A DNA stretch of 64,000 nt from Nitrosomonas sp. (GTDB lineage: Bacteria; Pseudomonadota; Gammaproteobacteria; Burkholderiales; Nitrosomonadaceae), in contig JAIETK010000022.1 of assembly GCA_019745325.1 (NCBI GenBank), positions 1-64,000 on the forward strand. Reading direction: 5' to 3'. Below are positions 75 through 14,937 of the stretch, one piece after another. Within the stretch, counting starts at the first letter, position 1. Each line of letters begins with the position of its first letter. A program made the translations under genes and the position numbers. The notes under the pieces were generated by a model. It was given only the letters and a program-made list of their open reading frames with translations. It ran no database searches and was not told where the DNA came from.

Positions 75-3000
75 TCACGCGGCTGCTTCCGCTTCGGAAT
101 AGGCGACCGCAATCGTTTCGCCGCCGGAGAATTCGATCAATTCAACATCGGTCAGCGTGTCGGTTTCACCCGCCGCGTTGGTTAGCGTGATTTGCGTGCC
201 GGCGATGGCGATGCGGTAATCCGCCGGTTGTCCGTCCTGGAAGGCGCGGTCGAAGCCGAAACCGCCGTTCAAACGGTCGCTGCCGCTGCCGCCGGTTAAT
301 TGGTCATTGCCTGCGCCGCCGAAAACGATGTCCTGCCCGGCGTCGCCCGAGGTGCGATCATCGCCGCCGAGGCTGCCGACTGTGTCGTTGCCGCCGCCGC
401 CGGATAGCGTGTCGTCGTCCGCGCCGAGGACGATGAACTGATTCTGATCGTCGCCCGCGGCGAAATTTTGTCCGCTGCCGCCGGTCACCTGCACAGCGCC
501 GACGATCGATGCGAATGCAACATTGTCCAGTTGGATAACGGTGCCGGGAGGCAATTGCCGGGCGTCGATCACCAGCAGATTGCCGGTTGCGCCGGCGCCT
601 GCCGGACTGCCGATGAGAATCGGCAATGCTGGCGGTCGATCGCCGGTAACGCTTGGTGTGATGGTATAGACGCTGACCGGATCGCTGCCGGGCAGTTGCG
701 CTAGGAATTGCCGTGCTTGCGCCGCCAAGTCGCTGGCCGCGTTACTGCTCAATCCGCCGATTTGCGCCAGAGCCGCAATCGCGCTTGCCTCGGCTTGCGC
801 CAAGCCCAGCGCCTCCGGCCGCCCGGTGACGTTCAATCCGGCGCCGGTTGGCAGGCTGACCGTCAATAAAGGATTGCCCGCCGCATCCGCCGCCAGCGGA
901 ATATCCGCGTAGTCGCGGAATAACGAATCGGGATCTTCCTGCCGGGAGGACTCAACGGCCGAAACGACAGTGACGACAGTGCCGTCCGCTTGAGTCGTTG
1001 TCGTGGTGGCCGCGCCGTCGGTCGTTGTGGATGTGGCGGTACCGTCATTGTTACTGCTGCCTCCGCCACCGCCACCGCTTGAAGAAGTGGGGATCGATAC
1101 GGTAATGCCGTTGCCGCCGGTATCGGCAATCGTGACCGCGGCATCCGCACCCGCCGCCCAATCCTCGGCAGCGGCCAGATTGTAGGCCGTCGCATCGGTG
1201 GAAGCCGTGCCCGCTTTGTTGAGCAGCAGATTGACCGCGGCCTTGTCGGTGCTGCTCAAAGTGAGGGTGAACGTTGTGCCGGAGGTGATTTCAACATCGG
1301 CGGTATCGGTCAGTGTGTAGGTGCCGCCGCCCTCGCCGGTGAAGGTGAATTGGGAGGCGTCGATATCGTTGGCCGCGCCGCTGGCTTTCAAGAATCCCGA
1401 TCCGGTCACGGTCAGCGCGCCGGTGCCGGTATTGTAGGCGGCCGATGTGATCGCGGGGGCGGCGACACTCGATGCGGTGATGCCATTGCCGGTTAGATCG
1501 GCCACGGCTACCGCCGCGCTGGCGCCCGCCGCCCAATCCTCGGCGGCGGCCAGGTTATAAGTCGTGCCGCCGGTGGAAGCGGTGCCGTTTTTATTGACGA
1601 TCTGATTGACAGCGGCTTTGTCGGTGCTGCTCAATGTCACGGTGAATGCTGTGCCGGAGGTGATCTCGACATCGGCGGAATCGGTCAATGTATAGGTATC
1701 GCCGCCTTCGCCGGTGAAGGTGAATTTCGATACATCGATATCATTAGCCGCACCGCTGCTTTTCAGCAAGCCGGTACCGGTGACCGCCAATGCGCCGGTG
1801 CTGGCGTTATAGGTGGCCGATGTGATCGCGGGTACGGCTACGTTGGATGCGGTGATGCCGTTGCCGGTGGCGTCGGCGGTATCGCCGGTGGTGGCATTCG
1901 TATTCCAATCATCCGCCGCCGCCAGATTGTAAGTAGTTCCGCCGGTCGAAGCAGCACCGTTCTTGTTGACGATCTGGTTGATGGCTGCTTTGTCGGTGGC
2001 GCTAAGTGTGACCGTAAAGGCTGTGCTGGAGGTGATCTCGACATCGACGGAATCGGTCAGTGTATAAGTACTGCTGCCTTCGCCGGTGAAGGTGAACTTC
2101 GACGCATCGATGTCGGCCCCGCCGCCATTGGCTTGCAGATTGGTGCCGGTTACGGCCAGCGATCCGGACGAGGCATCGTAAGTGGCCGAGGTGATGCGCG
2201 GATTGATTGACACCGTAACCGCATTGACGGCATCGCTGATATCGGTGGCGGCATCGGCGGCGCTCAACCAATTATCGGCGGCCGCCAGATTGTAGGTCGA
2301 ACCGCCGGACGACGTCGTTCCGGTTTGATCCAGTAAGGCGTCGACGGCGGTTTTGTCTGCTCCCGATAAGGTAACGCTGAACGACGTGCTGGAAGTGATC
2401 TCGACATCCGATGCGCTGGTGATGGTGTAGGTGGCGCTTGCGGTTCCGCCGGTCAAGGTCAGCGTGGAAATATCGATGTCGTTGCTGGCGCCGGTCTTTT
2501 TGAAAAGATTGCTGCCGGTAACAACCAGAATGCCGGTATCGGAATCGTAAGTGGCCGACGTGATTGTTGGCGTCTGCACATTGCTGACGGTGATGCCGTT
2601 GCCGGTCAGATCGGCGACCGTGATCGAAGCCGCGGTGCCGGCCATCCAGTCTTCAGCCGCCGCGATATTGTAGGTCGTGGCGCTGGAAGATGTTGTGCCG
2701 TTCTTGTTCAACAATCCGCGTACTGCCAACTGGTCGTCCGCATTGAGCGTGACGCTGAAGGCAGTGGCCGACGTCACGTCGACAGACGAAGAGGTCAGCG
2801 TATAACTGCCGCCTTCACCCGTCAGCGTCAGCAGTGAAACCGTCACATCGTTGCTGGCGCCGCTGTTGGCAACAAAGTTGGTGCCGCTGACCGTCAGCAC
2901 GTTAGTACTGGCGTCGAATGTAGCGGAAGTAATGGCGGGTGCGGCGTAGTTGCTGACGGTGATGCCGTTGCCGGTGGTGTCGGCGACGGCAACGGCGCTG

Positions 3001-5321
3001 TCCGCGCCTGCCGCCCAATCCTCGGCGCCAGCCAGATTATAGGTGGTGTTGCCGGCCGATGACGTACCGTCTTTATTCAGCAACGCCTCGACGCTGATTA
3101 AATCCGCGCCGGTCAGTGTCACCGAAAACGAAGTTCCCGACGTGATTTCTACATTCGTTGCACTGGTCAATGTGTAGGTTGCGCCGCCCTCGCCGGTGAA
3201 CGTCAGCTTGGATAAATCGATATCGTTGGTTGCGCCGCTTTTCTGCAAGAAGCCGGTGCCGGTAACGGTCAGCACATTGCTGTTGTAATCGTAGGTGGCC
3301 GAGGTGATCGCCGGTGCCGCGACATTCGAGACAGTGATGCCGTTGCCGGTGGTATCGGCGACGACGGCGGCGCTGTCCGCGCCAGTTGCCCAGTCTTCCG
3401 CCGCAGCCAGGTTGTAGGTGGTGCCGCTCGTGGAGGAAGAGCCGTTCTTGTTGATGAATTGGTTGACCGCAGCTTTGTCGGTAGCGCTCAACGTGATGGT
3501 GAACGCCGTGCCGGAAGTGATTTCGACATCGCTGCTGTCGGTTAGCGTATAAGTTGTGCCGCCTTCGCCGGTGAATGTGAACTTGGACGCCACGATATCG
3601 TTGGTCGCGCCGCTGGCTTTCAGGAAACCGGAACCGGTGACTACTAAGGTGCCGCTGCTGGCGTCGTACGTGGCGGATGTGATTGCCGGTGTCGCGACGC
3701 TGGATGCGGTGATGCCGTTGCCGGTGGTGTCGGCGACCACGACAGCAGCATCCGCACCGGCGGCCCAGTCTTCTGCCGCCGCCAGGTTGTAGGTGGTGCC
3801 GCCGGTGGAGCTGGTGCCGTTTTTGTTGACGATCTGGTTGACTGCGGCTTTGTCGGTGGCGCTCAATGTGATGGTGAATGCCGTGCCGGAGGTGATTTCG
3901 ACATTGGCGGAATCGGTCAGCGTATAAGTATCGCCGCCTTCGCCGGTAAACGTGAATTTGGATGCGACGATGTCATTGGCGGCGCCGCTGGCTTTCAGCA
4001 AGTCGCTGCCGGTGACTGCCAAGGCACCGGTGCTGGCGTCGTACGTGGCGGAGGTGATCGCGGGTGCTGCAACATTCGAAACCGTGATGCCGTTGCCGCT
4101 GGTGTCGGCAATACTGGTGTTGCCGATGACCGTGTTCCAGTCGTCCGCCGCGGCCAGATTGTACGTGGCGGCATCGGTCGAGCTGGTGCCGTTTTTGTTG
4201 ACGATCTGGTTGACGGCGGCTTTGTCGGTGCTGCTCAAGGTGACGGTGAATGACGTGCCGGAAGTAATTTCGACGTCGCTGGTATCGGTCAGCGTATAGG
4301 TCGAACCGCCTTCGCCGGTGAACGTCAGCAGCGACGCATCGATATCGTTGGTTGCGCCGCTGGCTTTGACCAGGTTCGCGCCGGTAACGGTCAGCGTGCC
4401 GGTGCTGGCGTCATACGTGGCGGAAGTGATCGTGGGTGTTTGCACGTTGCTGACGGTAATGCCGTTGCCGGTGGTGTCGGCGTTGCCGCTTTGCGCCGGA
4501 TTCCAATCCGCTGCCGCGGCGATATTGTAGGTGGTGCTGCCGACCGAGGACGTGCCGTTCTTGTTCAGCAAGCCTTCGACATTGAGCTGGTCGGCGGTAT
4601 TCAACGGTACGGTGAATTGCGTGGCGGAATCGAGCTCGACGTTCGACGACGTGAGGGTGTAGGTGGCACCGCCTTGGCCGGTCAATGTCAGTTTCGAGAC
4701 ATCGATATCGTTGGTTGCACCGGACGTGGCGGTCATGTTGGTGCCGGTGACAACCAGCGAATTGGTGCTGGCGTCGTAAGTGGCTGAAGTAATGACCGGC
4801 GGCACCACCGCGGTGGAAATATCGATATCGTCGATGGTCAATTCCACCGCGCTGCCGAATACGAAGCGGATTTCGTCGATATTGTTGAAGGCCGAATTGA
4901 AACTCAAGGTACCGCTGTATAACGAGCCGATATTGCTCAACTGGGTGTAGCTGATATTACCGGTGGAATCGTTGGCGGTCATATTGACCGCCTCGGTGGA
5001 CACGATCAAACCGCCGTCGCGATAACCGGCGACCGTCAACGAGGTGGATGCGCCGCTCGGGCCGTTGTCGAAGTTGAATGAATTCAGCTTGAAATCCGAA
5101 CCATCGGCGGATTTGAAGTAAAAACCGGTTACTGAAGCGCCGCCGTAATTGAGCAGGATCGACCGTCCGCCGGATTGATTCAGCAGTACGGCCATATCGC
5201 TGTTGCTGACATTCGCGATATCGATCGAACTGCCGGAACCGAATGTCCATCCGTCGTAGGTCGCGGAGGTAACGGATGTATTATTGACGAGCGATCCGCT
5301 ATTGAAATTGGTAACAGTCAT
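75..5321 (-). CDS. Giant RTX-type secreted repeat protein (type I secretion substrate)
   Basis: This 1748-residue, Gly/Ser/Thr/Ala/Asp-rich protein has no N-terminal signal peptide. Residues 1-170 form a unique head. Residues about 174-1408 hold ten tandem copies of a domain of about 123 residues, each opening with PAITSATYDAS. A Gly/Ser and Thr-rich linker follows, then a unique region. Residues about 1633-1694 carry RTX nonapeptides (GGGGNDTV, GGAGNDQL, GGSGSDRL) that bind calcium in this family. The short C-terminus ending in AEAAA is where type I secretion signals lie. The start is well supported by AGGAGGT six bases before the ATG. Inferred role: exported surface adhesin or S-layer-like protein. 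No type I secretion genes lie in the window. The Sel1-repeat gene is upstream on the same strand, 78 bases away. Confidence 0.9.
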   Translation of the reverse strand: MTVTNFNSGSLVNNTSVTSATYDGWTFGSGSSIDIANVSNSDMAVLLNQSGGRSILLNYGGASVTGFYFKSADGSDFKLNSFNFDNGPSGASTSLTVAGYRDGGLIVSTEAVNMTANDSTGNISYTQLSNIGSLYSGTLSFNSAFNNIDEIRFVFGSAVELTIDDIDISTAVVPPVITSATYDASTNSLVVTGTNMTATSGATNDIDVSKLTLTGQGGATYTLTSSNVELDSATQFTVPLNTADQLNVEGLLNKNGTSSVGSTTYNIAAAADWNPAQSGNADTTGNGITVSNVQTPTITSATYDASTGTLTVTGANLVKASGATNDIDASLLTFTGEGGSTYTLTDTSDVEITSGTSFTVTLSSTDKAAVNQIVNKNGTSSTDAATYNLAAADDWNTVIGNTSIADTSGNGITVSNVAAPAITSATYDASTGALAVTGSDLLKASGAANDIVASKFTFTGEGGDTYTLTDSANVEITSGTAFTITLSATDKAAVNQIVNKNGTSSTGGTTYNLAAAEDWAAGADAAVVVADTTGNGITASSVATPAITSATYDASSGTLVVTGSGFLKASGATNDIVASKFTFTGEGGTTYTLTDSSDVEITSGTAFTITLSATDKAAVNQFINKNGSSSTSGTTYNLAAAEDWATGADSAAVVADTTGNGITVSNVAAPAITSATYDYNSNVLTVTGTGFLQKSGATNDIDLSKLTFTGEGGATYTLTSATNVEITSGTSFSVTLTGADLISVEALLNKDGTSSAGNTTYNLAGAEDWAAGADSAVAVADTTGNGITVSNYAAPAITSATFDASTNVLTVSGTNFVANSGASNDVTVSLLTLTGEGGSYTLTSSSVDVTSATAFSVTLNADDQLAVRGLLNKNGTTSSSATTYNIAAAEDWMAGTAASITVADLTGNGITVSNVQTPTITSATYDSDTGILVVTGSNLFKKTGASNDIDISTLTLTGGTASATYTITSASDVEITSSTSFSVTLSGADKTAVDALLDQTGTTSSGGSTYNLAAADNWLSAADAATDISDAVNAVTVSINPRITSATYDASSGSLAVTGTNLQANGGGADIDASKFTFTGEGSSTYTLTDSVDVEITSSTAFTVTLSATDKAAINQIVNKNGAASTGGTTYNLAAADDWNTNATTGDTADATGNGITASNVAVPAITSATYNASTGALAVTGTGLLKSSGAANDIDVSKFTFTGEGGDTYTLTDSADVEITSGTAFTVTLSSTDKAAVNQIVNKNGTASTGGTTYNLAAAEDWAAGASAAVAVADLTGNGITASSVAAPAITSAAYNTGTGALTVTGSGFLKASGAANDIDASQFTFTGEGGGTYTLTDTADVEITSGTTFTLTLSSTDKAAVNLLLNKAGTASTDATAYNLAAAEDWAAGADAAVTIADTGGNGITVSIPTSSSGGGGGGSSNNDGTATSTTTDGAATTTTTQADGTVVTVVSAVESSRQEDPDSLFRDYADIPLAADAAGNPLLTVSLPTGAGLNVTGRPEALGLAQAEASAIAALAQIGGLSSNAASDLAAQARQFLAQLPGSDPVSVYTITPSVTGDRPPALPILIGSPAGAGATGNLLVIDARQLPPGTVIQLDNVAFASIVGAVQVTGGSGQNFAAGDDQNQFIVLGADDDTLSGGGGNDTVGSLGGDDRTSGDAGQDIVFGGAGNDQLTGGSGSDRLNGGFGFDRAFQDGQPADYRIAIAGTQITLTNAAGETDTLTDVELIEFSGGETIAVAYSEAEAAA
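1095..4800 (-). repeat. Ten tandem domain repeats of about 370 bp inside the RTX gene
   Basis: Ten direct repeats of about 370 bp (about 123 codons) run without interruption. Their starts lie near 4800, 4438, 4072, 3694, 3316, 2944, 2572, 2203, 1834 and 1465. Each unit carries the same landmarks in order: ITSATYD, VTG, FTGEGG.TYTLT, VEITSGT.FTVTLS, NKNGTSS, YNLAAAEDW and TGNGITVS. The third, fourth and ninth units look the most alike and the sixth to eighth are more divergent, which suggests repeated internal duplication. These are coding repeats, not a CRISPR array. Confidence 0.92.
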
Positions 5322-5399
5322 GTTGCACCTCCTATAAGAATCGGCAGTTGCGCTTCAATCGTTGGCATTGAATTCACCCGGCCGCAAAAAAAAAACGGT

Positions 5400-6416
5400 T
5401 TAATCCAGTTGTAAGTGCTGCGCAACCTTACGATCGAGCTCGGCTAGCCAAGTGGGCGGCATTACGACGAGGATTTGCTGGCGGATCGCCCGGGCGGCGG
5501 CCACTTCTTCCGCATCCATGGATCGTTGTATCGCGGCGGAAATCCATACGTACGCTTTGGCCAGATGCGCCGCCGGGAGCAGGCTGGTTGCCGCATCGGC
5601 TTCCGTGGTGAAAAAATGTTTACCTGCCTGAAAATAGGCTGGAATATATTTGAGCGCGGCGGCTTGCTCGAAAAGCTGCCGGGCCTGTTCCGCATCATGC
5701 CCGCTGATCACACCTTGCGTCAGCATCATGCCTAAATGATAAAAGGCTTCCGCGGATTGCTTTTGCGCCGCTGCCAGGAACCACTGGTAAGCTTCTTGAG
5801 GATTGCGCACGCTGGAGTCGCCGTACAGATAAAACTTGCCCATCCAGAGTTGCGCAGGCGTCGATCCTTGCAACGCCGCGGGACGACAAAGTTCCAATGC
5901 TTGGAGGGGGTTTTTGGCTATGCCGTTTCCGGTCATCAGCAAATTGCCGAGATGGCAGTAGGAATTCAGGTGTCCGGCTTGCGCGGCTTTCTGAAACCAT
6001 TGAGCGGCCGCTACGGGATCGGCCGGGCGGTGTACGCCTTCCTCGAAGCACAAGCCGGTCATGTGCTGCGCCGCCGGAATGTTATTTTGCGCCGCTTGCT
6101 CGAACCACTCACAGGCGATTTCGCGGTCGGCGGCGCGCCCCCAGCCATTCTGGTAAAACAGCGCCAAAGTAAATTGCGCCAGCGGCTGGCGGCCGTTCAC
6201 GGCGGCGGCGCGATACTGGTCGAAGGCGTTGCCGTAATCTCCGGCTGCAAGCAACGACTGCGCGGTTTGCAAATCCTGATCGTCATTGAGCGTCGCATCG
6301 GCTGAAGGTGTGACCCCCGCGAAGGCGTTGGACAGGAAAGTTGCGGCGCAGAAGATTATCCAAAATGCTTGGATCGTTTTTTCAATGCTGTATGGCCGGG
6401 TATGGTGGTTTTTCAT
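5400..6416 (-). CDS. Exported Sel1-like repeat (TPR-type) protein
   Basis: A protein of 338 residues from the chosen ATG, which is preceded by AGGAAA. An upstream in-frame start at 6467 would put 17 residues before the hydrophobic signal sequence and is less likely. The N-terminus (MKNHHTRPYS, then a hydrophobic stretch ending near SNAFAG) looks like a signal peptide. The mature part holds several Sel1-like repeats of about 36 residues with the pattern A...GLCFEEG...AAQWFQKAA...A...LG.L...G. This repeat family folds as alpha-solenoids and scaffolds protein complexes. It lies between the tail-collar protein and the RTX protein on the same strand, so co-expression is possible. The partner is unknown. 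Confidence 0.85.
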   Translation of the reverse strand: MKNHHTRPYSIEKTIQAFWIIFCAATFLSNAFAGVTPSADATLNDDQDLQTAQSLLAAGDYGNAFDQYRAAAVNGRQPLAQFTLALFYQNGWGRAADREIACEWFEQAAQNNIPAAQHMTGLCFEEGVHRPADPVAAAQWFQKAAQAGHLNSYCHLGNLLMTGNGIAKNPLQALELCRPAALQGSTPAQLWMGKFYLYGDSSVRNPQEAYQWFLAAAQKQSAEAFYHLGMMLTQGVISGHDAEQARQLFEQAAALKYIPAYFQAGKHFFTTEADAATSLLPAAHLAKAYVWISAAIQRSMDAEEVAAARAIRQQILVVMPPTWLAELDRKVAQHLQLD

Positions 6417-6443
6417 CGTTTCCTGAAGCGGATTGGAACGGCT

Positions 6444-6484
6444 GATCAGGGGCGAGGGAGAACCCATCTGCTCCGGCCCTGATC
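6444..6484. terminator. Inverted repeat between mdpB-like and Sel1 genes
   Basis: GATCAGGG at 6444-6451 and its exact complement CCCTGATC at 6477-6484 can form an 8-bp stem with a 25-base loop, just after the stop of the tail-collar gene. There is no clear T-run, so it may be a weak terminator, an attenuator or chance. Confidence 0.35.
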
Positions 6485-6515
6485 AACGCGGTCCAATCGT
6501 ATATTCCGGTTGAAA

Positions 6516-7241
6516 TTACGGGCGCGTCGGATAAACGCCTTGCCAAGCGATGATGCAATTCACCACGGTATACGGCGGCATGATCGAGAAAGGCTGGGAA
6601 TTGCCGGTCGAACCGATGCTGACATTGGTGCTGGTCGTGGTGGTGATGTTGAGCCCGCTCAGCGTGGTTTCGATCGAAGCCGCATTCATGCTGACGTTTG
6701 GCGCGGCGGCGGAGTAATTCGAGTTTAATCCCTTGGCGTTGGCCAGCGAATTGCCGCCGGCGTTTTTCTGATCGGCATCGCTATTCACCGCTTTCAATGT
6801 CGATGTGGCGCTGGCGCCCGGCGCGACCGCTGACGTGGATGCCGAAGTGGCGGCGGCCGTATGACTGTGCGCCGGCAAGTTATTGACGGTTAACGCAGCG
6901 CTTTCCGCGCCGCCGGTCTGTCCCAGCGTAAACATCGAACCGCCCGGATGCTGCCCGCGGTGCACCGGCACTCTGCCGCGCATGTCGGGCAGTGCGAAAG
7001 TCGTGGTGCCGTTGCCGCCGTAAGTGTTGCCGATCAGAGAAAAAAGCGCGTTGTACTGGCTGACGGGTAATATTTGCCCGTCGCATTGCAACCAGCCGTC
7101 GGGCGCAAAATTAAACGCCACGTAACTGATTTCCCCTACAAATGGATCCATACCGGCGCTGGCGCTGCCCGGTGTTGTGGTCCAAAGCGCCAGAGCAGCG
7201 GTAAGAGATAAGAAATTTTGTGTTGGTTTTGTGCATCGCAT
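6516..7241 (-). CDS. Exported phage tail collar domain protein (MdpB / microcystin-dependent-protein family)
   Basis: A protein of 241 residues. A signal peptide ends near SASAG. It is followed by the typical start of this family, MDPFVGEISYVAFNFAP.GWLQCDGQ, and by LFSLIGNTYGGNG, FALPDMRGRVPVHRG and the NLPAHSHTA segment. The family shares the tail collar fold of phage short-tail fibres and occurs as single chromosomal genes in many bacteria. Exact roles are unsettled. The last part (about residues 120-215) is a Ser/Thr/Ala/Asn-rich low-complexity insert before the closing NSQPFSIMPPYTVVNCIIAW motif. No other phage genes are nearby, so this is not a prophage. It lies upstream of the Sel1 and RTX genes on the same strand. 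Confidence 0.88.
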   Translation of the reverse strand: MRCTKPTQNFLSLTAALALWTTTPGSASAGMDPFVGEISYVAFNFAPDGWLQCDGQILPVSQYNALFSLIGNTYGGNGTTTFALPDMRGRVPVHRGQHPGGSMFTLGQTGGAESAALTVNNLPAHSHTAAATSASTSAVAPGASATSTLKAVNSDADQKNAGGNSLANAKGLNSNYSAAAPNVSMNAASIETTLSGLNITTTTSTNVSIGSTGNSQPFSIMPPYTVVNCIIAWQGVYPTRP

Positions 7242-7410
7242 AAATAATTTCCTTTGTGCTCAAATGAAATGATTAATTTTTTGTGTAACCTTCTTTTGCT
7301 GACTACTATCGTAGCAGCGCAATAATCTGGTCATAGTGTTGGAATAAGATGCTTTTGGCCTTCAATTCCACTGGAAGCAGATATTAATTCGGTGAATCTT
7401 GAATCGATAA

Positions 7411-7553
7411 GGAAGTGCTGATTAATTGACTGCACGAGCGAATTGCTTCGTTGCGTGGTACTCACTCCTTCGCCTATCAGATTGATATGTCCCGGTTGTT
7501 GCGTTCCGTGCGCCTCGCCCTTCATCACGTTCGTTGAATTAATCAGCGCTTCC
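7411..7553. mobile_element. MITE-like element, full copy 1
   Basis: A 143-bp non-coding element bounded by terminal inverted repeats GGAAGTGCTGATTAATT and AATTAATCAGCGCTTCC, 16 of 17 positions complementary. It is flanked on both sides by ATAA, a probable 4-bp target duplication. Its interior matches the second full copy at 41341-41492 (TGCACGAGCG, CTTCGTTGC, GATATGTC.CGGTTG, GTGCGCCTCG). It fills most of the 511-base gap between the tail-collar gene and hsdR; the rest of that gap shows no gene. Confidence 0.8.
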
Positions 7554-7752
7554 ATAAACGGCCACCCCAACTTAAATACACGATGTACTGATGTTAAGAT
7601 GTCAGGATGATGAAATTGAATGATCTGAAAGACTGAGCAGAGTGTTGGGAGCAGATCAGGGTTGCGTCACTGGTATAGAGCTATTCCCATTAATGGCGAT
7701 GAAACAATCAATGCCTGTAAAATTAACAAATTGAACTTTCCGAATCATCCCG

Positions 7753-10700
7753 ATGACAGCAACAGAAACCCGAATTGAGCAAGATCTGATCGCTAAGCTT
7801 GAAGCGCTCAAATATACCTATCGTCCGGATATCCGTGATCGTGAAGCACTGGAAAAAAATTTCCGTGAGAAATTCGAGGCACTTAATCGCGTCAAGCTGA
7901 CGGATTCGGAATTCTCCAGGCTGAGGGATGAAATTGTTAACGCCGACGTTTTCGCTGCCGCCCGGCATCTGCGTGAAAAGAACGGATTCGAGCGCGATGA
8001 CGGCACGCCGCTGTACTACACGCTTGTCAACATCAAAGACTGGTGCAAGAACAGCTTCGAGGTTATCAATCAACTGCGCATCAATACCGACTACAGCCAC
8101 CACCGCTATGATGTGATCTTGCTCATCAATGGCGTGCCGGTGGTGCAGATCGAGCTGAAAGCGCTTGCCATCAGCCCACGCCGGGCCATGCAGCAGATCG
8201 TCGATTACAAGAACGACCCTGGCAATGGCTACAGCAAAACCCTGCTGTGCTTCTTGCAACTGTTCATCGTCAGCAATCACTCAGACACTTGGTACTTTGC
8301 CAACAACAACAACCGCCATTTCAGTTTCAACGCCGACGAACGTTTTTTGCCGTTCTATCAGTTCGCAGGTGAGGACAACACTAAGATCACTCATCTGGAC
8401 AGCTTTGCTGACAAATTCCTCGCCAAGTGCACGCTGGGCGAGATGATCAGCCGTTACATGGTGTTGGTGGCCAGCGAGCAGAAATTGCTGATGATGCGCC
8501 CGTATCAAATCTATGCCGTCAAGGCCATTGTCGAGTGCATCCACCAGAACTGCGGCAACGGCTACATTTGGCACACTACCGGCAGCGGCAAAACACTCAC
8601 CTCGTTCAAAGCATCGACTCTGCTCAAGGACAATCCAGACATTGACAAATGCCTGTTCGTGGTGGATCGCAAGGATCTCGACCGGCAGACGCGGGAAGAA
8701 TTCAACAAGTTTCAGGAAAAGTGCGTCGAAGAAAACACCAATACCGAAACACTGGTAAGGCGGCTGCTCTCGGACGACTACGCCGATAAGGTGATTGTCA
8801 CCACCATCCAGAAGCTCGGCCTGGCACTCGATGGCAACAATAAAAAGAATTATCTGGCCCGGCTGGAACCGCTGCGCCAGCAGCGCATGGTTTTCATCTT
8901 CGACGAATGCCACCGCTCGCAATTCGGCGAGAACCACAAGGCCATTAAAGAATTCTTCCCCAACGCGCAGTTGTTCGGCTTCACCGGCACGCCGATCTTC
9001 GACGACAACGCCAGCTATCAGCAGATCGAAGGCCAGCAGGCATCCTTCAAAACCACGGCGGACATCTTCCAGCAGCAACTGCATGCCTACACCATCACCC
9101 ACGCCATCGAAGACCGCAACGTGTTGCGCTTCCATGTGGATTACTACAAACCCGAGGGCAACCACCCCACCCCTTCGGGGCACCCCTCCAGAGGAGGGGA
9201 ATCACCCCGCCCTAATTCCCCTCCTTTGGAGGGGTGGCAGGCGAAGCCGGACAGGGTGGTGCCAACCAAACGCGCCATTGTCGAGGCGATTCTGGCCAAG
9301 CACGATGCCGCCACCAACGGACGCAAGTTCAATGCCGTGCTGGCCACGGCTTCGATCAACGACGCGATTGAATACCACGCGCTGTTCAAGACTGTGCAGG
9401 TAGAAAAACAGGCCCAGATTGAGTCAGTGGGCGGTGATTTCCAGCCGCTCAACATTGCCTGCGTCTTTTCCCCGCCCGCCGAGGGCAACAAGGACGTGCA
9501 GCAGATCCAGGAAGACCTGCCGCAGGAAAAGGCCGACAACGAACAAGCGCCAGACGAGAAGAAAGCCGCGCTCAAAGCTATAATCGCCGACTACAACGCC
9601 CGCTTTGGCACTAACCACAGCATTGGCGAATTCGACCTCTACTATCAGGACGTGCAAAAGCGCATCAAGGATCAGCAATATCCCAACCAGGATTTGCCCC
9701 ACGCACAGAAGATCGACATCGTCATCGTGGTGGATATGCTGCTCACCGGCTTCGATTCCAAGTATTTGAACACGCTGTACGTGGATAAGAACCTCAAGTA
9801 CCACGGGCTGATTCAGGCGTTCTCGCGCACCAATCGCGTGCTTAACGACACCAAGCCCTACGGTAATATTCTCGACTTCCGCCAGCAGCAAGACGCCGTG
9901 GACACCGCCATCGGCCTCTTTTCCGGCGAAGCCGCCAAACCTGCCAAGGAGATTTGGCTGGTGGACAAAGCCCCGGTGGTGATCGGCAAGCTGCAAACCG
10001 CGGTACAAAGCTTAAGTGACTTCATGCAATCGCAGGGATTGGAGAACAAACCGGAGGCGTTACCCAACCTCAAAGGCGACGCCGCGCGCAGCCAGTTCAT
10101 CAACCTGTTCAAGGAAGTGCAGCGCCTCAACACCCAACTCGACCAGTATACCGATCTGACGGACGAGCATAAGGCCAGCATCGAGCAGGTGCTGCCCAGG
10201 GAACAGTTGCAGGGTTTCAAGGGCGTGTACCTCGACACCGCCCAGCGCCTGAAGGAAAAGCAGGATAAACGAGACGACAGTACGCCGCCAGAAGTGCAAC
10301 AGCTCGATTTCGAGTTCGTGTTGTTTGCCAGCAGCGTGATCGATTACGACTACATCATGGCGCTGATTGCCCGCTACGCCAGCCAAATGCCAGGTAAGCA
10401 GAAGATGAGCCGCGCCGAGTTGATTGGTTTGATTCAGTCCGACGCCAAACTCATCGACGACCGGGATGCGCTCACTGAATATATCGATAGTCTCAACACC
10501 GACAAACCTCATACCGTGCAAGGTATTCGAGAAGAATACGCCCAATACAAGGTCGCCAAAACCAACCAAGCCATTGCCGAGGTGGCTGCCAAACACGGCC
10601 TTGCTACCGCCGCCCTGCAAGATTTTGTCGACGGCATCCTGCGCCGGATGGTGTTCGATGGCGATCAACTCAGCGAGCTGTTCGCCCCGCAGGAACTAGG

Positions 10701-10812
10701 CTGGAAAGCCCGCACCAAGGCGGAGCTGGCGCTGATGGAAGACCTGATTCCGCTGTTTAAAAAACTCGCCCAGGGGCGCGAGGTTTCGGGACTGGAGGCT
10801 TATGAGCAGTAA
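7753..10812 (+). CDS. hsdR: Type I restriction enzyme R subunit (endonuclease/translocase)
   Basis: A protein of 1019 residues, the length of EcoR124-type HsdR. An N-terminal nuclease domain carries YDVILLINGVPVVQIELK (D120, E134, K136), a PD-(D/E)XK site. The superfamily 2 translocase follows: Walker A TTGSGKT with K280, DECH at 384-387, FGFTGTP, then LLTGFDSK and QAFSRTNR. It cleaves DNA after ATP-driven translocation once recruited to HsdM/HsdS. Residues about 470-503 (GNHPTPSG through KPDRVV) are encoded by an in-frame copy of a GC-rich palindromic repeat, placed between translocase segments where relatives are expected to have only a short loop. The frame is intact and the protein may still work. 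It is first in the locus; R before S and M is not the commonest order. Confidence 0.95.
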   Translation: MTATETRIEQDLIAKLEALKYTYRPDIRDREALEKNFREKFEALNRVKLTDSEFSRLRDEIVNADVFAAARHLREKNGFERDDGTPLYYTLVNIKDWCKNSFEVINQLRINTDYSHHRYDVILLINGVPVVQIELKALAISPRRAMQQIVDYKNDPGNGYSKTLLCFLQLFIVSNHSDTWYFANNNNRHFSFNADERFLPFYQFAGEDNTKITHLDSFADKFLAKCTLGEMISRYMVLVASEQKLLMMRPYQIYAVKAIVECIHQNCGNGYIWHTTGSGKTLTSFKASTLLKDNPDIDKCLFVVDRKDLDRQTREEFNKFQEKCVEENTNTETLVRRLLSDDYADKVIVTTIQKLGLALDGNNKKNYLARLEPLRQQRMVFIFDECHRSQFGENHKAIKEFFPNAQLFGFTGTPIFDDNASYQQIEGQQASFKTTADIFQQQLHAYTITHAIEDRNVLRFHVDYYKPEGNHPTPSGHPSRGGESPRPNSPPLEGWQAKPDRVVPTKRAIVEAILAKHDAATNGRKFNAVLATASINDAIEYHALFKTVQVEKQAQIESVGGDFQPLNIACVFSPPAEGNKDVQQIQEDLPQEKADNEQAPDEKKAALKAIIADYNARFGTNHSIGEFDLYYQDVQKRIKDQQYPNQDLPHAQKIDIVIVVDMLLTGFDSKYLNTLYVDKNLKYHGLIQAFSRTNRVLNDTKPYGNILDFRQQQDAVDTAIGLFSGEAAKPAKEIWLVDKAPVVIGKLQTAVQSLSDFMQSQGLENKPEALPNLKGDAARSQFINLFKEVQRLNTQLDQYTDLTDEHKASIEQVLPREQLQGFKGVYLDTAQRLKEKQDKRDDSTPPEVQQLDFEFVLFASSVIDYDYIMALIARYASQMPGKQKMSRAELIGLIQSDAKLIDDRDALTEYIDSLNTDKPHTVQGIREEYAQYKVAKTNQAIAEVAAKHGLATAALQDFVDGILRRMVFDGDQLSELFAPQELGWKARTKAELALMEDLIPLFKKLAQGREVSGLEAYEQ
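9161..9261 (+). repeat. GC-rich palindromic element, copy 1 (translated inside hsdR)
   Basis: About 101 bp beginning ACCACCCCACCCCTTCGGGG and ending in GACAGGGTGGT. Inside are inverted pairs CCCCTCC/GGAGGGG in two places. It shares its ends and core with copies at 10838, 11377 and 12710, all in the same orientation. Here it is read in frame within hsdR. Confidence 0.85.
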
Positions 10813-10837
10813 AACCATCTCGTTCACTACAACGTCT

Positions 10838-10940
10838 ACCACCCCGCCCCTGCGGGGCACCCCTCCACGGGAGGGGAATTTTTGGGTCTTTCCCCTCCTG
10901 TGGAGGGGTGGCAGGCAAAGCCTGGCGGGGCGGTTTTACC
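10838..10940 (+). repeat. GC-rich palindromic element, copy 2 (intergenic)
   Basis: A copy of the RM-locus palindromic element directly after hsdR, opening ACCACCCCGCCCCTGCGGGG and closing GGCGGGGCGGTTTTACC. A further tail-end fragment (CGGGGTGGTCTTG) follows at 10971-10983, right before the DUF559 start codon. The gap from 10813 to 10983 contains only these repeats. Confidence 0.85.
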
Positions 10941-10983
10941 TCGCATGGAGAGGTGATGGACGAAACATGACGGGGTGGTCTTG

Positions 10984-11505
10984 ATGCGGAAAACGGCTCG
11001 TTATATGACATTGCCGTACAATCCGGCACTCAAACAACGCGCCAGGGAGTTACGGCGAGCGGGTAATTTGTCTGAAGTGTTGTTGTGGAATCAAGTCAAG
11101 AGCGGCCAATTTTCAGGGTTGGATTTTGATCGGCAGAAGATCATCGGCAATTATATTGTCGATTTTTATTGCGCTGAAAAAGCGGTCGTGATTGAGATAG
11201 ATGGTGGCAGTCATGATCACAAGGTGGAATATGATGCTCAACGGGATGCATATTTAATGAGTCTGGATTTGACTGTCATCCATTTGTTGGATAAGGACGT
11301 GAAAAATAATTTATCGGGAGTGATGCAATTTCTTTTACAACACCCGGCTTTGACCGCTCCGCCTCGGGGCAAAGCGACCACCCCGCCCCTGCGGGGCACC
11401 CCTCCACAGGAGGGGAATTCTGGGCGGCATTCCCCTCCTGTTGAGGGGTGGCAGGCGAAGCCTGACGGGGTGGTTTTACCGCCTTCGGAGGGAAACGATG
11501 CGTGA
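10984..11505 (+). CDS. DUF559 (Vsr/MTJ-like) small endonuclease-fold protein
   Basis: 173 residues from the ATG; an in-frame GTG at 10975 and an ATG at 11005 are alternatives. Residues 10-115 match the DUF559 family: LPYNPALKQRARELRR, LSEVLLWNQVKS, FDRQKIIGNYIVDFYC and VVIEIDGGSHD, ending in VIHLLDKDV. These carry the D...E-x-D core of a restriction-endonuclease-like fold related to Vsr. No reaction has been settled for this family, to my knowledge. The last 45 or so residues (TTPPLRGTPPQEGN, SPPVEGWQAKPDGVV) are not part of the domain but a translated copy of the palindromic element. The stop overlaps the hsdS start. DUF559 genes being embedded in this repeat raises the idea that the enzyme and the repeat are functionally linked. 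Confidence 0.85.
   Translation: MRKTARYMTLPYNPALKQRARELRRAGNLSEVLLWNQVKSGQFSGLDFDRQKIIGNYIVDFYCAEKAVVIEIDGGSHDHKVEYDAQRDAYLMSLDLTVIHLLDKDVKNNLSGVMQFLLQHPALTAPPRGKATTPPLRGTPPQEGNSGRHSPPVEGWQAKPDGVVLPPSEGNDA
11377..11480 (+). repeat. GC-rich palindromic element, copy 3 (C-terminus of the DUF559 gene)
   Basis: The best-preserved copy: it opens ACCACCCCGCCCCTGCGGGG, contains CCCCTCC..AGGAGGGG and CCCCTCCTGTTGAGGGG hairpins, and closes GACGGGGTGGTTTTACC. It is translated as the C-terminal tail of the DUF559 protein. The ribosome-binding site of hsdS (GGAGG) lies just beyond it. Confidence 0.87.
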
Positions 11506-12784
11506 GCAAAGAAAGCAGGCATTGCTGCCCAAACTGCGCTTTCCTGAGTTTCGGGAGGCGGGGGAGTGGGAGGAAAAACTGCTGGGTGCGGTTTGTGATA
11601 TGCAGGCTGGTAAATTTGTTTCAGCCTCGGAGATATTAGATAAGCCAGCCAAAGAACACTATCCATGTTTTGGCGGCAACGGTCTACGTGGCTACACCAA
11701 GTCGTTCAACCAGTCTGGTCGATATTCGCTTATCGGTCGTCAGGGCGCACTTTGTGGAAATGTAAATTTAGTTGAAGGTAATTTCTACGCCACTGAACAT
11801 GCCGTTGTAACCACGACTAAACTGGGAATTAGAACAGACTGGCTTTTCTACAATCTCTGCCTACTAAACTTGAATCGTTTTGCTACAGGCCAAGCGCAAC
11901 CCGGACTTTCGATCGACGTTCTTGAGAAGGTTAATTGTGCAGTTCCGAAGGACGAGAAGGAACAACAAAAAATCGCTGACTGCCTGTCTTCCATTGACGA
12001 GCTTGTTACCCTGGAGACGCAAAAGCTCGATACGCTCAAGACTCATAAAAAAGGGCTGATGCAGCAGCTTTTCCCCGCCGAAGGCGAAACCCTGCCCAAG
12101 CTGCGCTTTCCTGAGTTTAGGGATGCGAGGAAGTGGGAGGAGCGTGAACTGGGGCCGCTGACAACAAAAGTCGGCAGCGGTATCACGCCGATGGGTGGCG
12201 ATAAAAACTACAAAACAAAAGGGCGCCCGTTTGTGCGAAGTCAAAATGTCGGTTGGGGCGAACTGATCTTGAATGACGTGGCATTTATTGACGAAGAAAC
12301 ACACCAGTCCTTCGACTCCACTGAAATCAAAGTATCCGACGTTCTTCTCAACATTACTGGCGCATCCATCGGACGAAGCGCAGTGGCCGATTCGCGCATT
12401 GCCGGAGGAAACGTCAATCAGCACGTCTGTATTATTCGAGTTAAACAGGACAAATTAAGTCCCACTCTGCTAAACCATTTTCTAATTTCAGAACGCGGCC
12501 AGAAGCAAATTGACAGTTTTCAGGCTGGCGGGAACAGACAAGGGCTGAATTTTGCACAAATTTGGTCATTCGTGGTTCCGCTGCCGCCGACCGAGCACGA
12601 GCAGCGCAGGGTCGCTGACTGCCTCACTTCCCTCGACGAACTGATCACCGCCCAAACCCAAAAACTCGCCGCGCTCAAAGCCCATAAAAAAGGATTGATG
12701 CAGCAGCTATTCCCCTCCGTTGGAGGGGTGGACGGCGAAGCCGGACGGGGTGGTCGCCCCGTAGTGGATGGGGCGCAAGGATGA
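11498..12784 (+). CDS. hsdS: Type I restriction-modification specificity subunit S
   Basis: 428 residues from ATG 11498, preceded by GGAGGGAAACG. It has the HsdS architecture of two target recognition domains, each opening LPKLRFPEFR, and each followed by a conserved helical spacer. The two spacers are near-identical (ADCLSSIDELVTLETQKL...HKKGLMQQLFP and ADCLTSLDELITAQTQKL...HKKGLMQQLFP), as expected for a pseudo-twofold subunit that sets the DNA target. Sequence specificity cannot be read from the sequence. The C-terminus (SVGGVDGEAGRGGRPVV) is encoded by half of the palindromic element and is an add-on. It overlaps the DUF559 gene by 8 bases and the DUF1016 gene by 4 (ATGA), so it is translationally coupled. 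Confidence 0.95.
   Translation: MREQRKQALLPKLRFPEFREAGEWEEKLLGAVCDMQAGKFVSASEILDKPAKEHYPCFGGNGLRGYTKSFNQSGRYSLIGRQGALCGNVNLVEGNFYATEHAVVTTTKLGIRTDWLFYNLCLLNLNRFATGQAQPGLSIDVLEKVNCAVPKDEKEQQKIADCLSSIDELVTLETQKLDTLKTHKKGLMQQLFPAEGETLPKLRFPEFRDARKWEERELGPLTTKVGSGITPMGGDKNYKTKGRPFVRSQNVGWGELILNDVAFIDEETHQSFDSTEIKVSDVLLNITGASIGRSAVADSRIAGGNVNQHVCIIRVKQDKLSPTLLNHFLISERGQKQIDSFQAGGNRQGLNFAQIWSFVVPLPPTEHEQRRVADCLTSLDELITAQTQKLAALKAHKKGLMQQLFPSVGGVDGEAGRGGRPVVDGAQG
12710..12757 (+). repeat. GC-rich palindromic element, half copy 4 (C-terminus of hsdS)
   Basis: A right-hand half of the element: TTCCCCTCCGTTGGAGGGG followed by GGCGAAGCCGGACGGGGTGG, matching the last half of copies 1-3. It is read in frame as the last 20 or so residues of HsdS. 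Confidence 0.8.
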
Positions 12785-13776
12785 ACGCATTGACCACATT
12801 TCACGCCGACATCAAAAACATCCTCGAGCAGGCGAGGAGCAAGGCGCGTTCAGCGGTGAACGCCGCGATGGTCGAAGCCTACTGGCAGATTGGGCAACGG
12901 ATCGTAGAAGAAGAGCAGCTTGGGCAGCACAAAGCCCAATACGGTAAACGGCTGATCGAAGACCTCTCGGCAGCGTTGATGGCGGATTTCGGCAAGGGTT
13001 TTTCCTATGCCAATCTGTATAACTGCCGCCAGTTTTACCTGACCTTTCCCGATCAGGAGATTCTCTACACGCTGTGTAGAGAATTGAGCTGGAGCCACCT
13101 GCGCTTGATCATGCGGGTCGATTCGCCGCAAGCCATTGACTATTATTGCCGCGAAACCAGAGAGCAAAACTGGACGGTACGCCAACTGGAGCGCAATATC
13201 AAAAGCCAGAGTTTTCAGCGCCTGCTTTCAACCCAGACCCCGCCATCGCCGGCACAGAGCGCCTCTGCCCACCTGGAATTTATCAAAGACCCTTATGTGC
13301 TGGAATTCTTGCAATTGCCGGAAACTGGCGAGGTAAAAGAAAGCCGACTGGAGCAGGCGATTATTGATGAGCTGCAAAAGTTTCTGCTGGAACTGGGCAA
13401 GGGTTTCTCGTTTGTGGCAAGGCAGATGCGTATCAGCACCGAAACCAGTCATTTTTATCTCGACCTGGTGTTCTACAACTACTTACTCAAGTGTTTTGTC
13501 ATTATTGACCTGAAGACCGGCAAGCTTAGCCATCAGGACATTGGCCAAATGGATATGTATGTGCGCATGTTCGACGATCTTAAGCGGGGTGAAGACGACA
13601 ACCCCACCATTGGCATTATTCTTTGCGACAGCAAGGATGAAACCGTCGTTAAATACTCGGTGATCAAGGAGAGTCAGCAACTTTTCGCTTCCAAGTATCA
13701 GCGCATACTTCCGACCGAAGCGGAATTGATTGCCGAAATTGAGCGGGAGAAGCGGTTGATTGAGGGAGGCGCATGA
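12781..13776 (+). CDS. DUF1016 / YhcG-type PDDEXK nuclease-domain protein
   Basis: 331 residues. The N-terminal part (HADIKNILEQARSKA, EAYWQIGQRIVEEEQ, LSWSHLRLIMRVDS) is the helical DUF1016 N domain. The C-terminal part carries SHFYLDLVFYN, FVIIDLKTGKL and MDMYVRMFD, a PD-(D/E)XK-like nuclease core. The YhcG family often sits inside type I RM loci; its job there is not settled and a nuclease or regulatory role is inferred. It starts on the ATGA overlap with hsdS, so it belongs to the same transcript. Full length, no visible defect. Confidence 0.88.
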   Translation: MNALTTFHADIKNILEQARSKARSAVNAAMVEAYWQIGQRIVEEEQLGQHKAQYGKRLIEDLSAALMADFGKGFSYANLYNCRQFYLTFPDQEILYTLCRELSWSHLRLIMRVDSPQAIDYYCRETREQNWTVRQLERNIKSQSFQRLLSTQTPPSPAQSASAHLEFIKDPYVLEFLQLPETGEVKESRLEQAIIDELQKFLLELGKGFSFVARQMRISTETSHFYLDLVFYNYLLKCFVIIDLKTGKLSHQDIGQMDMYVRMFDDLKRGEDDNPTIGIILCDSKDETVVKYSVIKESQQLFASKYQRILPTEAELIAEIEREKRLIEGGA

Positions 13777-13841
13777 CGTCACCGGAAATGGCGGCAACTA
13801 TCGAGGAATGCTGGGTAGTTCATATATGCGAATAAGATAAA

Positions 13842-13884
13842 AAATGACTGAACAAGATCAAAAACAACTGGGCAACACCCTGTG
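13842..13884 (+). repeat. Duplicated 5' end of hsdM (truncated copy)
   Basis: 43 bases that match hsdM 15042-15084 at all but one position and include its start codon and first 13 codons (MTEQDQKQLGNTL). They sit between the DUF1016 gene and rhuM. The copies are direct repeats exactly 1200 bp apart and flank rhuM. No long frame follows this copy, so it is a dead remnant. Confidence 0.9.
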
Positions 13885-13899
13885 CGGCGAGGTGCTGGG

Positions 13900-14937
13900 A
13901 TGACTAAACACCCCCCCGCAGGCCAACTACTGATCTACCAGACCGAAGACGGCCGCTTGAAAGTCGAAGCCCGGCTAGAGCATGAGACCCTGTGGCTGAC
14001 CCAGCAGCAGATGGCGGATTTGTTTCAGACCAGCCAGCAGAACGTCAGCCTGCATGTGCAGAATGTCTATGAAGAAGGAGAGTTGCGGCAGGAGGCAACT
14101 CACAAGGATTTCTTGTTGGTTCGCCAGGAGGGGGCAAGGCAGGTGTCGCGCCAGGTGGCACACTACAACCTGGACATGATCCTCTCGGTTGGCTATAGGG
14201 TGAAAAGCGCGGTGGCGACGCGCTTTCGCATCTGGGCGACGCAAACCTTGCGCGAATACATCGTCAAAGGCTTTGTGCTGGACGACGAGCGCCTGAAAAA
14301 CCCCGATCAACCCTTTGATTATTTTGATGAGCTGTTGCGGCGCATTCAGGATATCCGCACGTCCGAGCGTCGCTTTTACCAAAAAATCACTGATATTTAC
14401 GCCACCAGTATCGATTACGATCCCACTCAGCCGCAGAGCATCGCCTTTTTTCAAACAGTGCAAAACAAGATGCATTGGGCGATTACAGGACAAACGGCTG
14501 CAGAAATCATTCATGCACGCGCCGACAAAAACCAGCCCAATATGGGACTGACTAATTGGCGGGGCGGCAAGGTGCGCAAGGCCGATGTGAGTATTGCCAA
14601 GAATTACCTGAACGCCGACGAGTTGGTGGCGCTCAATAATCTGGTGGAGCAATATCTGGTGTTCGCCGAAGGCCAAGCCATGCGCCGCGTGCCCATGACC
14701 ATGAACGATTGGATTAGCAAGTTGCACGGTTTTCTGACCATCAACGACCGCGACATCCTGAATCACGCCGGAAAAATCTCCCACGACATGGCTAAAGCTT
14801 TCGCCGAAGCACAATACGAGCAATACAATACGGCCAGGATCAATCAATCTGATACGCTGGAAGCCGATTTTGACCGCGTGATCAAACAACTACCGGCTGC
14901 ATCTCGCAGGAAACCCAAAAACAAGGGCAAAGCATGA
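13900..14937 (+). CDS. RhuM family protein
   Basis: 345 residues from ATG 13900; a GTG at 13882 in the same frame falls inside the duplicated hsdM sequence and is less likely. It matches the RhuM family throughout: HETLWLTQQQMADLFQTS at the N-terminus, a helix-turn-helix-like segment, YNLDMILSVGYRVKS, RFRIWATQTLREYIVKGF and the C-terminal HAGKISHDMAKAFAEAQYE. RhuM was named from a Salmonella pathogenicity island. Homologues are frequent in type I RM loci and mobile regions, and the function is unknown. The gene lies between a dead and a live copy of the hsdM start, so it probably arrived as a cassette that split or duplicated the M gene end. Confidence 0.88.
   Translation: MTKHPPAGQLLIYQTEDGRLKVEARLEHETLWLTQQQMADLFQTSQQNVSLHVQNVYEEGELRQEATHKDFLLVRQEGARQVSRQVAHYNLDMILSVGYRVKSAVATRFRIWATQTLREYIVKGFVLDDERLKNPDQPFDYFDELLRRIQDIRTSERRFYQKITDIYATSIDYDPTQPQSIAFFQTVQNKMHWAITGQTAAEIIHARADKNQPNMGLTNWRGGKVRKADVSIAKNYLNADELVALNNLVEQYLVFAEGQAMRRVPMTMNDWISKLHGFLTINDRDILNHAGKISHDMAKAFAEAQYEQYNTARINQSDTLEADFDRVIKQLPAASRRKPKNKGKA

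Follow-up and report, generated by a model that had tools for sequence, protein, structure and literature searches.

A DUF559 nuclease gene and its GC-rich palindromes as probable parts of one mobile element in restriction-modification loci

Rickettsia palindromic elements are palindromes of about 150 bp that lie in frame in protein genes, as described in a review (PMC10969869). Among nucleases, the EDxHD family includes a DUF559 gene according to PMC9403480, and in Caulobacter the SOS response of cells without the cytosine methyltransferase requires VsrA, a protein with a DUF559 domain (PMC12907096). A GIY-YIG domain in HsdR of Methylococcus capsulatus, in frame and missing from a close homolog, was reported in 2006 (PMC1564403), and in the literature consulted this is the sole precedent found for an in-frame nuclease in HsdR. 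Here, a stretch of 64,000 nucleotides of Nitrosomonas sp. (assembly GCA_019745325.1, contig JAIETK010000022.1, positions 1 to 64,000 of the forward strand; hereafter the window) was analyzed, in which a DUF559 gene and several copies of a GC-rich palindrome lie in a type I restriction-modification (RM) locus. With a probability of roughly 0.6, DUF559 and the palindrome belong together as a single mobile selfish element, in which a homing-type nuclease is paired with coding palindromes of REPIN-like form and which works without splicing.

The association was evaluated on one scan of GTDB genomes with the DUF559 protein of the window, from which the best 80 of 245 relatives (66-98% identity) were kept. 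These loci span Pseudomonadota, Thermodesulfobacteriota, Cyanobacteriota, Bacteroidota, Chlorobiota, Spirochaetota, Bacillota and others. A palindrome was found within 600 bp of DUF559 at all 80, upstream in 79, downstream in 64 and on both sides in 63, which supports the proposal of an initial annotation of the window that a selfish palindrome, translated in frame, is linked to DUF559 at an RM locus. Hairpins numbered 290 over 90 kb in the vicinity of DUF559, 73 over 506 kb farther than 1.5 kb away, and 21 over 247 kb of control segments (20 segments of 12.35 kb placed by hand in five of these genomes). Within the genus (61 genomes), the DUF559 subfamily (E 1e-28 to 1e-30) was present in G000, the window genome, and in G002, G003 and G017, all four with the palindrome; G011, G065, G071 and G076 gave a single two-mismatch hit each, likely background. 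Among 398 Pseudomonadota genomes, 18 matched the window palindrome, those outside G000 by a single one-mismatch hit (G224 by two), and three genomes matched the reversed control as well. The palindrome is too rare in this set for a genome-wide test of co-occurrence. Searches for the palindrome at E 1e-5 found nothing in plasmids or in E. coli genomes. DUF559 was likewise missing from plasmids at E 1e-20, and a single weak DUF559 (36.8% identity) turned up in phages and six relatives in viral contigs. It thus seems that neither plasmids nor phages usually carry the element.

According to Pfam, the RM locus of the window comprises hsdR, DUF559, hsdS, a DUF1016 (YhcG) gene, a RhuM-family gene and hsdM, and PADLOC models recognise its genes as components of type I RM or as candidates for defence. 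The features around DUF559 are the following, with (+) for the forward strand.

7753..10812 (+): HsdR, type I restriction subunit, 1019 aa, host of copy 1; intact open reading frame (ORF) with Pfam HSDR_N, SWI2_SNF2, T1R_D3-like and EcoR124_C
9161..9260 (+): copy 1, full palindrome of 100 bp in HsdR residues ~470-503, read in frame as about HPTPSGHPSRGGESPRPNSPPLEGWQAKPDRV
10838..10934 (+): copy 2, full palindrome of 97 bp between the HsdR stop (10812) and DUF559
10939..10982 (+): decayed piece resembling a right half, just 5' of DUF559 (repeat family D2)
10984..11340 (+): DUF559 nuclease core, 119 aa; its ORF (10984-11505) has copy 3 as tail
about 11353..11370 (+): short remnant resembling a left end, between DUF559 and copy 3 (by eye; weak)
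11377..11474 (+): copy 3, full palindrome of 98 bp that forms the translated tail of the DUF559 ORF
11498..12784 (+): HsdS, type I specificity subunit, ATG at 11498; Pfam Methylase_S on a longer TTG ORF from 11441
12709..12754 (+): copy 4, right half only, translated as the HsdS tail (FPSVGGVDGEAGRGG...)

Three full palindromes of about 100 bp and one right half are present within 3.6 kb (9161-12754). The four GC-rich hairpin copies first annotated are real, except that copy 4 is only a right half and that two decayed pieces also flank DUF559. Their common direction has to be read with care, as the full copies are near-palindromes and the call rests on the asymmetric right arm. The translation of three copies, inside HsdR, as the DUF559 tail and as the HsdS tail, was confirmed, with the frame kept and the HsdR ORF intact. 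The stop of the DUF559 ORF (11503-11505) overlaps the HsdS start within ATGCGTGA. The core hairpin matched 13 times in the window at up to three mismatches against 0.05 expected, so the copies are not due to chance. In the whole window genome (3.02 Mb, 99.98% complete, with one DUF559 gene), the core pattern at up to two mismatches gave seven matches, all at this locus, and the reversed control gave none; outside this locus the genome lacks the element, whose link to DUF559 shows in other genomes. The DUF1016 (YhcG) and RhuM-family genes occupy 12781-14937, between hsdS and hsdM, and are neighbours of DUF559 at other loci too.

The right half of the repeat unit reads AATTCCCCTCC-nnn-GGAGGGGTG-small hairpin-CGGGGTGGT, and the full palindrome consists of two halves tail to tail, an inverted pair of ~100 bp. 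Units read AATTCCCC...GGGGTGGT, and the common arrangement at the loci is unit, DUF559, inverted unit, with the gene bracketed. The sequence of the small hairpin varies and its pairing is kept (CCC/GGG, GTC/GAC, TCC/GGA, GCT/AGC and others); both hairpins are paired in 100% of 407 cells from 37 distinct units. Double-sided changes occurred in 32 cells, every one of them in the small hairpin, where shuffles gave 8.5 and slid controls 0-1. Since pairing is maintained despite these changes, selection seems to act on the folding of the palindrome, whether as DNA or as RNA. Full palindromes have on average 3.5 of six frames open against 2.5 after shuffling (n=18, composition-only shuffle), which is only suggestive of openness in all frames above the shuffled level. 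Rfam 15 gave six matches up to E 5 over 8900-13000, none of them above the gathering score (best 22.5 bits against 62). Copies of the unit were counted in 34 genomes, most of which had few.

DUF559 lies inside a longer ORF in 32 of the 80 loci, taking at least 75 residues before it and at least 50 after it as the criterion, and 29 non-redundant in-frame ORFs remained after the near-duplicates L043, L049 and L074 were dropped. By Pfam, 26 of these 29 hosts are RM proteins, with matches to HsdR (12), N6_N4_Mtase (6), Type_ISP_C (5) and Methylase_S (2), and with an N6-methylase in L051. L055 matches DUF559 only, L078 shows beyond DUF559 only a weak MTES_1575, and L040 was grouped with these two by exclusion; L040 and L078 are alike, and L078 matches the Mod query (tblastn). 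In the 13 HsdR loci shown, the insertion site is directly before the WHTQGSGKS motif, which we take to be the Walker A motif of HsdR. No Hint or intein family was among the 17 Pfam families matched by the 29 in-frame ORFs; as no splicing domain was found, the insert should stay in the host protein. In addition, a start codon at the aligned Met1 was found in 0 of 35 in-frame DUF559, compared with 31 of 45 free copies. Besides the 32 above, the 35 include L028, L062 and L070, which were assigned by context, and without these three the count is 0 of 32.

In-frame DUF559 with host domains on both sides was also found in PheT (994 aa, G699; 63% identical to the window DUF559), in ValS (1026 aa) and MetH (1115 aa), both of G105 (33-34%), and in HrpA (1589 aa, G093; 39%). 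PheT, ValS and HrpA are named by NCBIfam too; the insert interrupts ValS between residues 205 and 211 of 1gax, and PheT between 190 and 201 of 3pco. Further host ORFs are RM methylases, of Eco57I type in L275 and L278 and of MmeI type in L280. Among 395 genomes around G115, six of 15 near-full-length hits (at least 54% identity) lie in open frames of at least 699 aa, and these six include G115 itself as the centre, the already known G118, and a 1142-aa ORF of G873 without other Pfam domain.

More complex hosts were observed as well. The Chitinophagales HsdR of L065 (1469 aa) contains palindrome peptides at four places, one of which includes DUF559, and has a GIY-YIG domain at yet another. GIY-YIG domains stand at two different places in HsdR proteins that both also contain DUF559 (L065, ORF 4513-8919, aa 275-343; L066, ORF 1458-5447, aa 941-1012). 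In L273, an ORF of 1142 aa (3125-6550, minus strand) shows palindrome peptides several times around DUF559, and Pfam gives no further domain. In Laspinema, L190 (G091:C8:59800-63000) shows four 42-bp units in tandem plus one more, in a genome with 78 unit matches, and L197 (G091:C55:165800-168800) has an in-frame palindrome at aa ~174 of an ORF on the minus strand (1206-1997), in the linker of an apparent LuxR-type regulator (by eye).

Empty sites were found for HsdR. Copy 1 is missing from HsdR of L083-L087, and the closest empty site is that of L002, from Nitrosomonas sp. SJ634, the nearest named relative by DUF559 (98% identical), where GAGGGTAAGAACAAACCGAAGCCGGGCGAGGCGCTGGCCAA stands in place of the window's palindrome. 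GAAGCCGG is common to this empty site and to the right arm of the element. HsdR relatives without the element also lack the segment (L083-L087, L002), as anticipated; the clean, precise junction foreseen in HsdR was not found, as native sequence is replaced relative to L002 over about 30 bp, or some 10 codons, which rules out a clean insertion of copy 1. A native internal repeat of HsdS reads CAGCTTTTCCCC where element tails read CAGCTATTCCCC, and CAGCT-TTCCCC is shared with copy 4. G136 has an HsdR without DUF559, about 89% identical in DNA and 89-97% in amino acids to the filled gene, and the right junction shares GGGAATTTATTAAATGAATC; the shared GGGAATT could also be a scar. A hypothesis drawn from these sequences is that insertion sites would resemble unit ends (GGGAATT, TTCCCC and GAAGCCGG at three sites).

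An RM gene was detected by tblastn with RM queries in 59 of the 80 loci, some of which end at contig ends; for full-length loci the count was 29 of 33, against 1 of 20 of the control segments. A tree of DUF559 from 79 loci and the window, with poorly resolved forks, clusters by insertion site (14 changes against a shuffled mean of 33), and one site spans phyla, a pattern that either homing or transfer of filled genes would be expected to give. The 80 include L042, whose DUF559 has a stop codon, and the tree omits it. Two further RM loci were observed. In L212 (G111:C9:250001-262350, 3663-7546), matches to a type ISP gene are split by ~3.9 kb with further ORFs, in a genome with DUF559 in HsdR. 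In L188 (G007:C27:152000-157500), a same-family HsdR is broken (residues 1-88 and 602-1019 match, one stop), and a palindrome stands alongside at hsdS.

The predicted fold of DUF559 matches Vsr and the homing endonuclease I-Bth0305I, that is, the catalytic-domain fold of EDxHD (Vsr-like) homing endonucleases. D60, E71, D73, H77, D84 and R87 are invariant in 48 DUF559 sequences (47 of the 80 loci plus the window, alignment A4, without L042), as aligned among DUF559 only. The VsrA requirement suggests an active DUF559 nuclease in Caulobacter.

Distant DUF559 subfamilies were studied in 20 hand-picked loci with 32-44% identity to the window DUF559, with 27 control positions each (540 within-locus controls). 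Repeats flanking the gene upstream and downstream exceeded the pooled 95th percentile in 16 of 20 (Mann-Whitney p 9e-10). Other DUF559 genes of Nitrosomonas and Pseudomonadota are flanked by different palindromes: CCCCCC...GGGGGG, CCTCCCCC...GGGGGAGG and CCCTCTCCC...GGGAGAGGG. In a Bacteroidota-centred sample, 22 of the best 30 were above the 95th percentile (169 controls). A version with cross-locus controls gave 20 of 34 above that percentile; since these controls mix related palindromes, the within-locus test is the better one. Palindromes of the CCCTCTCCC type, in at least three copies, were present in 36 of 61 genomes with DUF559 and in 48 of 337 others (398 Pseudomonadota, Fisher 9e-13), and inside one family in 5 of 5 against 3 of 11, kinship being controlled in that family alone and the lists transcribed by hand. 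Tentatively, at somewhat less than an even chance, the DUF559 family would provide the engines of a separate class of mobile elements, with its own GC-rich palindrome family in each lineage, among them the CCCTCTCCC-type repeats that many proteobacteria have, and with splice-free in-frame invasion of proteins, essential tRNA synthetases included.

The proposed mechanism starts from DUF559 as a putative Vsr-like (EDxHD/PD-(D/E)XK) endonuclease of the homing type. The unit would either bracket the nuclease gene or stand alone as a ~100-bp inverted pair, a presumed non-autonomous REPIN-like copy mobilised in trans. The nuclease would nick or cut target DNA at or near a sequence resembling the unit end, and the break would be repaired by copying the element in via short homology, with ~30 bp replaced at HsdR. 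Insertion in frame would leave the host protein functional, either lengthened by a flexible linker or extended by the nuclease as an additional domain, and splicing would be unneeded. As the unit is mostly stop-free in several frames, the host enzymes would be expected to stay active.

Several observations weigh against this mobile element. In the genus, G007, G012 and G084 carry exact palindrome matches without that DUF559 subfamily (those of G084 and G007 are located at hsdS), and G331 (L162), with a partial DUF559 of 69% identity, has no palindrome in 600 bp. Of 12 Laspinema places (L189-L200), only L197 is seemingly in a real gene, judged by ORF length, so coding insertion is no universal rule. 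At copy 1 there is replacement and no target-site duplication relative to L002, one site being compared, and the homology at the three sites examined is short (6-8 nt). A GTG, TTG or ATG is present from 12 codons upstream to three downstream of Met1 in 30 of 35 in-frame cases, mostly as GTG supplied by the palindrome, and an internal start for in-frame DUF559 from these codons is possible. Among distant loci, L221, L225, L226 and L235 (four of 20) were not above the 95th percentile; in the Bacteroidota-centred best 30, eight were not, and only nine passed the 99th. Of 11 genomes with at least 100 copies of CCCTCTCCC palindromes, four have DUF559 and seven (G428 with 497 copies, G499 with 295, G451 with 208, G472 with 142, G265 with 132, G314 with 107 and G335 with 105) have none at E 1e-15 with the window query, a cut-off set for relatives of the window protein. 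Finally, VsrA is proposed as a mismatch-repair enzyme and not as a mobile element in the text consulted of PMC12907096.

Inverted doublets, singlets and tandem arrays are arranged as in REPINs (PMC3116915), distant DUF559 genes have other palindromes, and the small hairpin covaries, all of which would agree with a REPtron-like system in which DUF559 acts like RAYT on single-stranded fork hairpins and ~100-bp doublets move by excision and integration, with no homing repair. Such a system is nevertheless unlikely, given that the fold of DUF559 is Vsr/EDxHD and not HUH Y1, and that one close empty site shows ~30 bp replaced and no simple insertion. It is clearly improbable that DUF559 is an accessory RM defence nuclease, with the palindromes as recombination or regulatory sites of RM systems. 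The frequency of RM genes (59/80 loci; 29/33 against 1/20 controls) and the DUF1016 and RhuM neighbours, which match PADLOC candidate systems, would fit this role, but in-frame inserts are also found in PheT, ValS, MetH and HrpA, distant subfamilies have flanking palindromes too, lone palindromes have spread in Laspinema mostly outside long ORFs, and the RM class varies (HsdR, HsdS, Mod, ISP, MmeI).

A very-short-patch mismatch-repair nuclease tied to DNA methyltransferases, as proposed for VsrA, with incidental palindromes, was regarded as very improbable. The DUF559 domain of VsrA, the functional dependence of VsrA on a cytosine methyltransferase (PMC12907096), the Vsr-like fold and the DNA methyltransferases among many hosts and neighbours speak for it; it leaves the bracketing palindromes, the start-less in-frame insertion and the tRNA synthetase inserts unexplained, the Pfam methylase families here are of N6/N4 types, and the strings 'palindrom' and 'homing' occur 0 times in the main text of that paper. 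That the palindromes are ordinary GC-rich terminators or repeats gathering in RM islands, where DUF559 hitchhikes, is extremely improbable in view of the palindrome at 80/80 loci, the in-frame translation, the start-codon loss and the within-locus controls, with no Rfam family above the gathering score, even if some genomes have palindromes without DUF559. The smallest chance was given to a structured RNA that guides or regulates DUF559. The covarying hairpin would suit it, and DNA hairpins explain the pairing equally; moreover, units stand on both sides of the gene in opposite orientation or in tandem, many of them are translated, and Rfam gave no match above the gathering score.

If DUF559 and the palindrome do form one mobile element, a likely job would be given to a family still named 'protein of unknown function', and a candidate enzyme to GC-rich palindromic repeats without a known mobiliser. 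CGTC repeats, which differ from those studied here, raise the same question, as they apparently have no dedicated transposase (PMC3733652). It would also be a route for a nuclease gene to live in essential or defensive enzymes without intron or intein.

The combination of DUF559 and palindrome was not found described in the portions consulted of the open-access literature on DUF559, palindromic repeats, RAYT, Rickettsia, EDxHD and HsdR. An intein, which it resembles by a nuclease in frame in essential enzymes, was ruled out, since no Hint or other splicing domain was found, and the pattern of a classic miniature inverted-repeat element (MITE) of a DDE transposon was not seen at copy 1, the one junction tested, where ~30 bp is replaced with no duplication. 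The Methylococcus capsulatus case involves another nuclease fold and is termed a unique insertion, with no palindromes in the text consulted (PMC1564403). Caulobacter VsrA shares the DUF559 domain and the Vsr-like fold, and the DNA damage response without the methyltransferase requires it; the parts consulted of PMC12907096 propose mismatch repair and mention neither palindromes nor in-frame insertion. Compared with the EDxHD homing endonuclease I-Bth0305I (PMC3943268), no intron or intein was seen here, and the DUF559 element has palindromic ends and is translated as a host-protein domain.

The REPIN/RAYT system and this one both have inverted doublets of a hairpin-forming unit, singlets and arrays (PMC3116915, PMC3733652), a dedicated enzyme gene flanked by its own repeats, and compensatory hairpin changes. 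However, the REPtron enzyme is a HUH Y1 tyrosine transposase, whereas the gene bracketed here is a Vsr-like DUF559 (RAYT genes elsewhere in the genome were not sought), and repetitive extragenic palindromic (REP) units have a GTAG foot, a tetranucleotide missing from the unit foot here; a RAYT system was ruled out by both. Unlike REPINs, the units are often translated in frame in genes and are low copy in most genomes counted. With Rickettsia palindromic elements they share the in-frame palindrome in protein-coding genes, so the Rickettsia-type element of the initial annotation stands as an analogue only: no nuclease partner is mentioned in the passages of the review consulted, whereas here the palindrome has its own nuclease gene, which can itself be the insert translated inside the host protein, and the hosts are mostly RM enzymes from many phyla. 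By these analogies, the element may be viewed as a cross between REPIN/RAYT and a homing endonuclease, the short form of which would behave like the Rickettsia palindromes.

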